64,000 bases of DNA from an uncultured Acidimicrobiales bacterium (GTDB lineage: Bacteria; Actinomycetota; Acidimicrobiia; Acidimicrobiales; SZUA-35), in assembly GCA_937976305.1 (NCBI GenBank), contig CALJSB010000119.1, positions 1 through 64,000 on the forward strand, read 5' to 3'. Shown in pieces: positions 31,901-38,186 of the stretch (position 1 is its first letter; every line of letters starts with the position of its first letter). A program made the position numbers and the translations under genes. The notes beneath the pieces were generated by a model. It was given only the letters and a program-made list of their open reading frames with translations. It made no database searches and was not told the origin of the DNA.

Positions 31901-33397
31901 TCAGTAGATGCCGGGCATCAGCACCATGTCAGCGCTCACCATGGGCACTCGAAACACCACATCAGCACCACGGGTGTCCATCATCGCGTTGTCGATGCCG
32001 GTGATGAACCAGAGCCGAGGCTCGGCGCCAACAAGCCGGAACTCGGTCAAGGCACGAGGGTTCTCGACCATCGGGGCAAGCGAGAGATGGAGCGCATCGC
32101 CAACCCACTCGGCTCGACTGAGCGCCATCGATGGGAAGTCGACGCCGACAATCTGCGGGCACGATTCGATAGGAGCGGCAGAAAGCGCCGTCCACCGACC
32201 AGGTCCTGCGGCCTCGGCGGTCGCGAGATAGGCGTTGTACTGCCCCCGGGGGTGTGGCTCACCGAGGCCCATGCCCCACGTGAACTCAGCCCGTTCGGTG
32301 TCCCACGTCGGCTCATACGACGCCTCGATGGCCGCAACGAGCTCGGCCTCGAGGTCGCTCATGCCCCACTCGCGAGCGAGCACGAGCGCCGATGCAAACC
32401 CACGGTTCGCCGGCAGCGGCGACGGCGGCCCCGCTTCCCCGAGTCCGACCGCTCGACACCCAGCCTCGAAGAGTCGTTGGGCGTCGTCAGGAAACTGCGG
32501 CGCGGCGTAGAAGGCCGTGGTGAGCGAGCTGTTCACCGGCATTCGATGGTGCACGTCAAGCAGTGGGTCGTAGTAAAGCGTGGTGGTCGTCGGCAGCTCG
32601 TCGCCCCCAAGCCCGAGATAGTGCGAACGGGCGTAGTCCCACCACCCCTCAACGGCTTCGCGATGAAAGTCGGTGCCAAATCGGTTGTCGTGCAGCCTCA
32701 GACCGAGGCCCGCTCCAGCCAGTCAAAACGGCCAGATCTTGGTGTTCTCTCAATGACAGCCGATCGGGGCAGCCAGCCACTGCTCTTTCAGGTGCTCCGC
32801 AATCGCGCTGTGCCTCCACGAGAAGCTGTTGTCGCCATCGCGGATCATGTCGAAGGGTGTGTTCCAGCGATCGTCGTCGGCCACCATCGATCGAATGCCG
32901 AGCAGCAACAAGAAGAATCCCTTGTAGAAGAGCATTCCGTCGGCGGCCACCGGGTCCATTTGGGTACCCCACGGCTCGATCCCGTTTGCCGTCCACCCCG
33001 GCACGTCGTAGTCACCCCAGAGTTCCTCCGGGATGAGCATCCGATAGGCATCCGGGTAGTTCCCACGATCGGGGTCAGGCCCAAACTGTGTGAGCCAATC
33101 GGCCGCTGACCACCAGCTCGTGTGACGTTCGATGAGCCGGTCGAGCACCTGCACGTACCGCTCGGTCCACGCAGGCGTCCGTTGGGCCATCAAGCCGAGG
33201 GCGTAAGAGGAATCCACCAGGTCAAAGCGATGCCAGCTTGCCATCGGCGGATCGGATCGATCATCCCAATGATCATGAGGCTGGCCCAAGCGATCCCAAT
33301 TGTCTGGCGTGTGCACCTTGCGGTCGAGGTATCGGAGCCACCCAAGCGAACGATCCGACAGCCTGTCCGCCGCAGACGCAGTGGAACTCGGGGCCAT
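31901..33397 (-). CDS. Linalool dehydratase/isomerase-like protein with two in-frame TGA (putative selenocysteines 216 and 225)
   Basis: Read through two TGA codons (32750-32752 and 32723-32725), this is a single 498-residue frame. The pieces on either side are clearly one protein of the LinD domain family ((alpha/alpha)6 barrel): FYKGFFLLLLGI, DGDNSFSWRHSAIAEHLKEQ, then APIGCH-U-ENTKIWPF-U-LAG, GTDFHREAVEGWWDY, and GLGEPHPRGQYNA near the end. Family members carry C-E-P-N-x-x-F-x-x-C-N here, with catalytic Cys171 and Cys180 in Castellaniella LinD (from memory), nine residues apart exactly as the two TGAs. The His of the LinD GHLN motif appears replaced by Phe (KGFF). ATG 33397 has TACGTT 6 bp upstream (leaderless). 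No SD. Substrate unknown. The alternative, a gene killed by two nonsense changes exactly at both active-site Cys codons, is much less likely. Confidence 0.8.
32695..32709 (-). promoter_or_regulatory. Putative bacterial SECIS hairpin for the second TGA of the LinD-like gene
   Basis: On the minus strand GCCTC-GGTCT-GAGGC forms a 5-bp stem. The apical loop GGUCU starts 19 nt after the second TGA, inside the 16-37 nt range usual for bacterial SECIS elements. The E. coli fdhF element has the same GGUCU in its loop (from memory). Confidence 0.6.
32714..32736 (-). promoter_or_regulatory. Possible SECIS-like hairpin for the first TGA
   Basis: TCTGGCC / GGCTGGA pairs over 7 bp with two adjacent G-U wobbles around the loop GTTTTGACT. 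The loop begins 21 nt after the first TGA and contains the second TGA, so the two recoding signals would overlap. Weaker than the hairpin for the second TGA. Confidence 0.35.
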
Positions 33398-34367: not shown

Positions 34368-35597
34368 CTAGCGGTCCTTGCGAATCAGCTCAACGACGTG
34401 TTCGGCGTCGTTGGCGTCGTCGCCCTTCTCGTTCAAGTTGCGCTGGCGATCTTCCTCGGCCGCCCGACGAGCAGCGGGGGCCGATGCTTTGGCTTTCTCC
34501 ATCGCCGCGTCGATGCCGTGCTCCATGATGAACTCGGCCCACTCGACAAGCGTCGGGACCATCTCGTCCTCGGGAACCACAGCAACGTTCTGGCCCTTGA
34601 CGAAGAGATGGCCGCGCTTGTTTCCGGCAGCAATACCGAGGTCGGCATCACGCGCCTCGCCCGGCCCGTTGACGACACACCCCATGACGGCCACTTGCAG
34701 CGGGATCTCGCGACCCTCAAACGCAACGACAGCATCGTCCGCCACCTTGTAGACGTCGATCTCGGCCCGTCCACACGAGGGGCACGCAATCAGATCGACG
34801 TTTTTGCGTTCGCGCAGACCCATGGCCTCCAGCAGTTGCCTGCCGATCTTGGCTTCCTGGACGGGATCCGCTGTGAGCGAGTAGCGGATCGTGTCGCCAA
34901 TCCCCTCGGCCAAAAGAGTTGCGATACCGGCAGTGGCCTTCACGATGCCTGCCGGGGGCGGTCCGGCCTCGGTGACGCCGAGGTGGAGCGGATAGTCGAC
35001 TCGATCGGCGAGTTGTCGGTACGCCTCAATCATCAGCGGCACATTTGATGCCTTCACCGAAATCTTGATCAGGTCGAAGTCGACCTCTTCGAAGTAGGCG
35101 ATTTCTTGCAAGGCCGACTCGACCATCGCCTCGGGTGTGACCTTGCCGCCGTACTTCTCATACAGCTTCGGGTCGAGGCTGCCACCGTTCACGCCGATGC
35201 GAATCGGCACGTTGCGATCTTTGGCTTCAGCAGCAACGGCCTTGATGTGTTCGGGCTTGCGAATGTTGCCGGGGTTGAGGCGCAGGCAATGCACGCCTGC
35301 TTCGAGAGCCTCGAGGGCCCGCCGATATTGGTGGTGGATGTCGGCAACGATCGGAACCGGGCTGCGAGGCACGATGCGAGCCAGGCCCTCGGCCGCCTCG
35401 GGCTCGTTGCACGTGCAGCGCACGATGTCGGCGCCAGCGGCCGCCAGCGCGTAGATCTGTTGCAGTGTGCCATCGACGTCGGCCGTCTTGGTGATGGTCA
35501 TCGACTGCACCGTGATCGGAGCGTCACCACCGACGGGGACGTTACCCACCATGATCTGGCGGGTCTTGCGACGCTCGAAGGTGACCCCTGTGTCCAT
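34368..35597 (-). CDS. ispG: 4-hydroxy-3-methylbut-2-enyl diphosphate synthase (flavodoxin)
   Basis: 409 residues. Penultimate MEP-pathway step, converting MEcPP to HMBPP with a [4Fe-4S] cluster. The cluster ligands are seen in CPSCGRAE and GCVVNGPGEA with the conserved Glu; the TIM-barrel part has VQSMTITKTADV and NPGNI. The C-terminus carries a charged extension. Sits with dxr in the same cluster, so two isoprenoid genes flank rseP. Confidence 0.96.
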   Translation of the reverse strand: MDTGVTFERRKTRQIMVGNVPVGGDAPITVQSMTITKTADVDGTLQQIYALAAAGADIVRCTCNEPEAAEGLARIVPRSPVPIVADIHHQYRRALEALEAGVHCLRLNPGNIRKPEHIKAVAAEAKDRNVPIRIGVNGGSLDPKLYEKYGGKVTPEAMVESALQEIAYFEEVDFDLIKISVKASNVPLMIEAYRQLADRVDYPLHLGVTEAGPPPAGIVKATAGIATLLAEGIGDTIRYSLTADPVQEAKIGRQLLEAMGLRERKNVDLIACPSCGRAEIDVYKVADDAVVAFEGREIPLQVAVMGCVVNGPGEARDADLGIAAGNKRGHLFVKGQNVAVVPEDEMVPTLVEWAEFIMEHGIDAAMEKAKASAPAARRAAEEDRQRNLNEKGDDANDAEHVVELIRKDR

Positions 35598-36989: not shown

Positions 36990-38186
36990 TTACGAACCTG
37001 CCCGCCGCAGCAGCTCGGTTGCATGGTGGCGGGCCTGTTGATCACCTTCAAGAACACCTTGGAGGGTCAACCCTGTTCCACCATCGTGCTTTTCCAGTGT
37101 TTCAGAGTTGATACCACTGATGTCGGCCCAGGCGAGGCCACCCTTAAGGAAGGCCTCGACGGCCACTTCATTCGCCGCACTCAACCACGCCGGCGCCGTG
37201 CCGCCCATTTCGGCCGCCTGATAGGCCAATGCGAGGCATGGAAAGGCCTCCAGATCAGGAGCTTCGAAGTCCAACCGACCGACGGTGGCCCAATCGATCG
37301 TGCCGTACGCGACGGGGAATCGGTCGGGATAGGCCAAGGCGTACCCGATCGGGAGCATCATCGTCGGCATCGACAGCTGCGCGATGGTCGAACCGTCTGA
37401 ATAGGTGACCATCGAGTGCACGATTGACTGAGGGTGGACGACCACCTCGATGTCGTCGAGCGTGAGCCCGTAGCCGAGATCCCCAGCCGGAGCTCCGAAG
37501 AGCTCATTGGCCTCGATCACCTCGAGGCCCTTGTTCATGAGGGTGGACGAGTCGATGGTGATCTTCGGACCCATCGCCCACGTGGGGTGAGCGAGCGCTT
37601 CCTCGATGGTGACCGACGCCAGCTCATCGCGGCTTCGCCCCCGAAACGGTCCGCCGGACGCCGTGACCTGAATGCGACTGACCCGTCGGTCAACGTCGTT
37701 GGCTCGCAGGCACTGATGAATCGCAGCGTGCTCGGAATCGACAGGAACGAGCTCTGCGCCAGGGGTGCGGCGAGCGGCTTGCACCACCGGGCCAGCTGAA
37801 ATGAGCGATTCCTTGTTGGCGAGCGCCAACCGTTTGCCGGACTCAAGCGCAGCAAGGGTGACCGGAAGACCGGCGAATCCCACCACTCCGTTCACCGTGA
37901 TGTCAGCTCGCCTGGCGCATTCTGCGAGTCCTTCTTCGCCAGACGCCACCTCGGTGCCAGCAGGAACTGCATCGCGCAGGGCCGGTTCGAGGCTCGGGTC
38001 ACCAACGGCAACGAGCTCAGGCCGCACCGCGTTTGCTTGTTCGATCAGCTGGTCGAGCGAGCGGCCGGCGGCCAACGAGTCGATCCGATACCGATCAGGG
38101 TCAGCAGCGATGACGTCGAGTGTCTGGGTGCCGATCGAACCCGTCGACCCGACGACGGCGACCGAAGTGCGATCGTCGGATGTCAT
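36990..38186 (-). CDS. dxr: 1-deoxy-D-xylulose 5-phosphate reductoisomerase
   Basis: 398 residues. NADPH- and metal-dependent first committed MEP-pathway step. GSTGSIGTQTLDVI (13-26) binds NADPH; metal and substrate residues are in PVDSEHAAIHQCL and ASGGPFRG; KITIDSSTLMNKGLEVIEA is also present. Follows cdsA in the usual cdsA-dxr-rseP-ispG order. Confidence 0.97.
   Translation of the reverse strand: MTSDDRTSVAVVGSTGSIGTQTLDVIAADPDRYRIDSLAAGRSLDQLIEQANAVRPELVAVGDPSLEPALRDAVPAGTEVASGEEGLAECARRADITVNGVVGFAGLPVTLAALESGKRLALANKESLISAGPVVQAARRTPGAELVPVDSEHAAIHQCLRANDVDRRVSRIQVTASGGPFRGRSRDELASVTIEEALAHPTWAMGPKITIDSSTLMNKGLEVIEANELFGAPAGDLGYGLTLDDIEVVVHPQSIVHSMVTYSDGSTIAQLSMPTMMLPIGYALAYPDRFPVAYGTIDWATVGRLDFEAPDLEAFPCLALAYQAAEMGGTAPAWLSAANEVAVEAFLKGGLAWADISGINSETLEKHDGGTGLTLQGVLEGDQQARHHATELLRRAGS

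Follow-up and report, generated by a model that had tools for sequence, protein, structure and literature searches.

A LinD-like Protein Gene with In-Frame UGA Codons at Both Catalytic Cysteine Positions: A Predicted Double-Selenocysteine Family in Acidimicrobiia and Other Bacteria

Gene and Genomic Locus

The analyzed stretch (hereafter, the window) comprises 64,000 nt of contig CALJSB010000119.1 from an uncultured Acidimicrobiales bacterium (GCA_937976305.1). The genome is a draft of 4.42 Mb in 160 contigs, with a completeness of 91.6%. On the minus strand of the window, a single reading frame extends from an ATG at 33397 to a terminal TGA at 31901–31903, and its translation is interrupted only by TGA at codons 216 and 225, as an earlier note on this DNA had described. 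The motif U-ENTKIWPF-U given in that note is also present in the translation, and the active-site motif of the protein reads GCH-U-ENTKIWPF-U-LAGAGLGLRLHDNR. The features considered below are as follows:

31901..33397, minus strand: gene of the predicted double-Sec LinD-like protein, 498 codons with the terminal TGA counted
32750..32752, minus strand: UGA1, codon 216 (Sec216), counterpart of LinD Cys171
32723..32725, minus strand: UGA2, codon 225 (Sec225), counterpart of LinD Cys180
32714..32736, minus strand: hairpin H1, characteristic of double-TGA genes, with UGA2 inside its loop (32722–32728)
32694..32710, minus strand: H2, predicted SECIS hairpin, stem GGCCUC/GAGGCU and loop GGUCU at 32700–32704
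32681..32752, minus strand: whole tandem recoding element, from UGA1 to 13 nt past H2

The gene is located about 70 nt upstream of a frame that we take to be rimP-like, followed by presumably nusA-like and infB-like frames (all named from ORF translations). The ispG gene of the MEP pathway (GcpE, PF04551) is found nearby at 34368–35597 on the minus strand, and a frame further on (36990–38186), named by eye, is presumably dxr-like. The proximity of ispG and the dxr-like frame probably reflects a coincidental housekeeping gene order.

Predicted Fold and Relation to LinD

Homology to the linalool dehydratase/isomerase (LinD) family, proposed in the earlier note, was supported by both profile and predicted fold. 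The protein matched the Ldi profile (PF18566) with 54.7 bits against a curated cut-off of 26.1, and the same profile matched 39 of 40 family members. Its AF2 model had a pLDDT of 89.6; in a Foldseek search of the PDB, the top 27 chains were all LinD (E 1.5e-11, TM 0.76 by target). A single-sequence phmmer search of the PDB gave no LinD match, and profiles were needed. Residue counting in the HMMER alignment placed Sec216, Glu217, and Sec225 at Cys171, Glu172, and Cys180 of LinD, so both TGA codons indeed occupy the positions of the catalytic cysteines. The earlier note gave the family motif as C-E-P-N-x-x-F-x-x-C-N; its nine-residue spacing is correct, while its letters are not, since LinD reads C171-E-P-D-N-Y-F-V-Q-C180-N.

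The architecture consists of a catalytic helical barrel region and a C-terminal beta-rich part (residues ~415–498), the strands of which extend past the LinD match in the AF2 model. Direct reading of the sequence revealed no hydrophobic signal-like segment at the N terminus. Thus, the protein resembles LinD/Ldi of Castellaniella defragrans in its predicted fold and the matching catalytic positions, but differs from it in having only ~16% identity, Sec codons in place of both catalytic cysteines, an additional C-terminal beta-rich part, and no signal-like N terminus; LinD itself is a periplasmic protein that has a disulfide cap (PMC6600392).

Homologues and Conservation of the Two Positions

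A family search of 39 genomes yielded more double-TGA genes with 66–76% identity and one gene with Cys followed by TGA. A scan of ~85,000 species genomes yielded 58 loci, and an order search of 298 genomes added further homologue loci. Homologues were labelled in their records as Acidimicrobiia, Chloroflexota, Entotheonella, and Alphaproteobacteria; no relative was found in the viral contigs searched. According to the codons at the two sites, homologues were classified as UU (TGA/TGA), CU (Cys/TGA), CC (Cys/Cys), and SH (Ser/His), with 34, 26, 2, and 2 distinct members, respectively. The in-frame UGA codons are therefore aligned with Cys in homologues, and in the alignment proposed by the earlier note the exchange between Cys and Sec occurs exactly at codons 216 and 225, with no scattered damage. 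A tree from which these two sites were excluded required no fewer than two gains or losses of the UU state.

Codon-by-codon audit of 24 full-length or long UU genes (~11,700 codons) found TGA at the same two codons and nowhere else in 24/24 genes; for this reason, the two TGA codons cannot be ascribed to chance. Values of dN/dS before TGA1 were 0.05–0.11 in six of the seven pairs with the window gene, the seventh being saturated, and those after TGA2 were 0.14–0.25. As judged from these comparisons, purifying selection persists downstream of TGA2.

These data bear on two readings in which no selenocysteine is involved. A pseudogene with two premature stops would account for the in-frame TGA codons as such; however, the same positions are affected in 34 distinct genes from several phyla, dN/dS is low, and neither a further stop nor a frameshift was found in any of the 24 audited genes. 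The comparative data refute this reading, the probability of which is negligible, and the view of the earlier note that decay explains the TGA pair poorly is upheld. Genome-wide reassignment of UGA to sense has nothing in its favor beyond the two TGA codons. The window gene and many of its homologues terminate in TGA, TGA is confined to the two catalytic codons, Cys214 being encoded by TGT/TGC, and the selenocysteine machinery is present (see below); reassignment was rejected as equally improbable.

Several members deviate from the common pattern. Loci L106 and L107 (genomes G186 and G077, respectively) have Ser/His at both Sec sites, while their genomes keep selA. This pair forms a long branch placed within the UU clade together with a CU gene, which suggests a changed function. 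Paralogues without TGA (L029/L032 in G002:C34, L030/L034 in G019:C449, and L033/L036 in G020:C456) have their active-site segment deleted or rewritten and the C-terminal part retained; they are perhaps inactive or repurposed copies. Entotheonella record OX639990.1 contains CU and UU copies in one genome (L075 and L086), and in related record OY282375.1, the CU copy is L074, while the UU copy, L090, has a seemingly shifted frame. One UU copy (L088, CAMBFS010000063.1) was found in a MAG titled Klebsiella pneumoniae, probably through mislabelling or wrong binning.

Selenocysteine Machinery

All four components that the earlier note had proposed to look for were found in the window genome. The selA gene (403 bits) adjoins selB (267 bits, above the cut-off) on contig C137. 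The selD gene (363 bits) likewise contains an in-frame TGA, within the motif GAGUACK; this codon occupies the catalytic position (L010:1531-1533, G000:C102), and the hairpin downstream of it, read by eye as GGCGCA-GGUUC-UGCGCC, again has a GGU-type loop. tRNA-Sec was detected with the Rfam model (71 bits), its anticodon UCA being read by eye; ARAGORN, run on a few loci, reported no tRNA there.

Among genomes of the order sample, selA was present in 15/15 TGA-bearing genomes against a background of 175/298 genomes above the cut-off, and in 13/13 TGA-bearing genomes probed through other loci, some of which may overlap the order sample. It was absent from both genomes with CC genes, G226 (89% complete) and G311 (77% complete); the CC sequence of G226 is identical to L064 in G325.

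The sequence data thus argue, with a probability of about 0.93, that the window gene encodes a selenoprotein with Sec at both UGA codons, 216 and 225. Sec216 and Sec225 would take the place of the two catalytic cysteines in an Ldi fold (PF18566), and the SelA/SelB/SelD/tRNA-Sec system of the genome would insert them. In many public genomes, such genes are probably either overlooked or annotated as two separate fragments.

Recoding Element

H2 starts 12 nt after UGA2, and its GGUCU apical loop is located at +19 from this codon, i.e., 18 nt intervene, exactly where the earlier note had seen it. The consensus downstream of UGA2 is GGYCUC-GGUCU-GAGRCU. The loop GGUCU was found in 60/60 TGA-bearing sequences, and among 30 UU and 22 CU sequences, 100% of the stem cells were paired; the third pair is C-G, U-A, or G-C. 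In L072, a compensatory change from C-G to U-A also alters the protein, substituting Phe for Leu and Lys for Arg; L078, which is a second gene copy, has G-C in place of C-G. In CC and SH members, the H2 stem is lost. Codons 226, 231, 232, and 233, all located within this element, are the top four conserved synonymous sites among 408, with codons 228 and 234 ranking 6 and 14, respectively.

Bacterial SECIS elements are expected to have a loop of 3–9 nt with G within the first two bases, a stem of 4–16 bp, a spacing of 16–37 nt, and an MFE of −7.5 kcal/mol or lower (PMC13188914). For UGA2, H2 agrees with all of these rules (loop GGUCU, 6 bp, 18 nt, and MFE −14.6 for a 44-nt stretch) and is conserved with covariation. 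For UGA1, neither hairpin does: the H2 loop lies too far off, at 45 nt, and in 33 of 34 sequences neither of the first two H1 loop bases is G. Folding energies of the element compared with shuffles were unremarkable (z −0.5 and −0.1); since folding energy alone is not unusual, the case for the RNA rests on conservation. No Rfam family matched at the element, while our covariance model of it (R1) found a single site in the window genome (E 5.3e-22). The SECIS of E. coli also has a GGUCU loop (hairpin ggttgcaggtctgcacc; PMC3834832). H2 shares this apical loop and the short stem with the formate dehydrogenase-type SECIS of E. coli (PMC3834832), from which the present element differs by an upstream hairpin with a second UGA in its loop. 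On comparative grounds, H2 is almost certainly the SECIS for UGA2.

The upstream hairpin, H1, begins 13 nt downstream of UGA1, and its loop lies 21 nt after this codon. RNAalifold predicted H1 for UU genes and not for CU genes. Its cells were paired in 96.3% of cases in UU against 62.5% in CU (30 and 22 sequences, respectively), and its outer U-A pair was present in 28/30 UU against 2/22 CU sequences. When synonymous codons were redrawn with the protein fixed, the expected number of local pairs in UU was 7.5 observed vs. 2.5 redrawn, and in CU 2.1 observed vs. 2.8 redrawn. Two clades showed this contrast between UU and CU (p 4e-6 and 9e-5, uncorrected for relatedness). H1 is still present in L041, a CU gene within the UU clade, as expected after a recent change from Sec to Cys. 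UU genes L076 and L088 have another residue order, yet a shifted hairpin folds at the same place. Within UU, no two-sided compensation was found in H1, so that its support comes from codon choice and the UU/CU contrast in sequences that share ancestry. Taken as comparative evidence, these data make it quite probable that H1 is real and tied to UGA1.

They also bear on the reading in which Sec is inserted at UGA2 only and UGA1 is a regulatory or genuine stop. The 45 nt between UGA1 and the H2 loop indeed exceed the usual range, and Cys is found at the first site in many homologues. However, with translation ending at UGA1, purifying selection could not be maintained on UGA2, H2, and the ~270 downstream codons; besides, UGA1 exchanges solely with Cys, or with Ser in the Ser/His pair, and is accompanied by H1 in two clades. 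Decoding of UGA2 alone is, therefore, very improbable.

With Sec at both codons, there are two ways in which UGA1 may be read. One is that H1 acts as a spacer that lets a single SECIS serve both UGA codons, to which we assign nearly an even chance. In this mechanism, H2, a SelB-type SECIS hairpin, would direct UGA2, as the sequence comparison supports; H1 would fold out the RNA between UGA1 and the H2 loop, leaving ~22 nt instead of the 45 nt that exceed the usual 16–37 nt; and H1 would then unwind as the ribosome advances to UGA2, where H2 would act again at 18 nt. The other is that H1 is a second, independent SECIS with its own SelB-binding or pausing signal, each UGA thus having its own hairpin. 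The similar offsets of H1 from UGA1 and of H2 from UGA2 fit this arrangement, as does the distance of the H1 loop from UGA1, which falls within the usual range. At the same time, the H1 loop almost always lacks the early G, in contrast to the invariant GGUCU of H2, and the only conserved bases in it are those of UGA2 and the following codon; we regard an independent SECIS as unlikely.

Possible Reaction

Of the residues associated with LinD activity, both catalytic cysteines (Cys171/Cys180) have their counterparts here as Sec codons. LinD Met125 and His129 are replaced by Phe157 and Phe161, respectively, in the profile alignment, so that the protein may not catalyze the LinD reaction as such. 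Replacement of either catalytic cysteine of LinD by Ala or Ser abolishes its activity (the residues are numbered 170 and 179 in PMC6600392), and the two cysteines act in the reduced state in non-redox chemistry (PMC6600392). We lean towards non-redox alkenol chemistry for the new enzyme. It would be cytoplasmic, act on an alkenol or terpenoid-like substrate, and perform acid/base or covalent chemistry with selenols replacing thiols.

A Cys residue (Cys214, codon 214 at 32756–32758) precedes Sec216 by two residues (C-H-U) in most members and is a possible redox partner of it. Accordingly, the protein might instead be a redox selenoenzyme with a Sec216–Sec225 diselenide or a Cys214–Sec216 selenenylsulfide, rather than a hydro-lyase/isomerase. 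Known selenoproteins are mostly thought to be redox proteins (PMC13188914), and the loss of LinD His129 is also consistent with this possibility; on the other hand, the fold is that of LinD with its non-redox cysteines, and Cys214 is replaced by Val or Pro in several members. We consider redox function somewhat unlikely. The complete model, in which one SelB-binding hairpin serves both UGAs via H1 and the product is a non-redox diselenol hydro-lyase/isomerase, is put forward tentatively, its chances being rather below even.

No conserved operon pointing to the substrate was found, synteny being limited to close relatives. Some loci are located near genes of acyl-CoA dehydrogenase, CoA-transferase III, FAD monooxygenase, and phosphotriesterase-family, 3-hydroxyisobutyrate dehydrogenase-like, and carboxyl transferase proteins. 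Such neighbors would be compatible with the breakdown of a branched or terpenoid compound.

Novelty and Significance

The earlier note knew of no described selenoprotein in the LinD family, and the sources searched agree. A 2026 table listing 119 families of prokaryotic selenoproteins has no Ldi-fold entry (PMC13188914), no NCBIfam model fits the protein, and no paper combining selenium or selenocysteine with linalool dehydratase was found in the open-access literature, subscription papers and preprints being outside the search. Known prokaryotic proteins with two Sec residues include UxxU Prx-like proteins, the FmdB family, MbdU, and UxxxxU TsoB (PMC13188914). The LinD-like protein would resemble the two-Sec entries of that table in the number of Sec residues per protein, but in no entry of the table do two Sec residues occupy catalytic positions with a spacing of nine residues. 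From its sequences, the LinD-like family appears to be a selenoprotein family new to the inventory, with Sec at both catalytic positions.

The natural series of UU, CU, and CC genes, together with a second hairpin found mainly in UU, provides a test of how two close Sec codons are decoded and may show one signal serving two codons. Since the fold is known for non-redox alkenol chemistry, the role of selenium outside redox catalysis becomes directly testable in this family. If the proposed chemistry is true, selenium would serve here in a pair, as acid/base or nucleophile, beyond its classical redox role.
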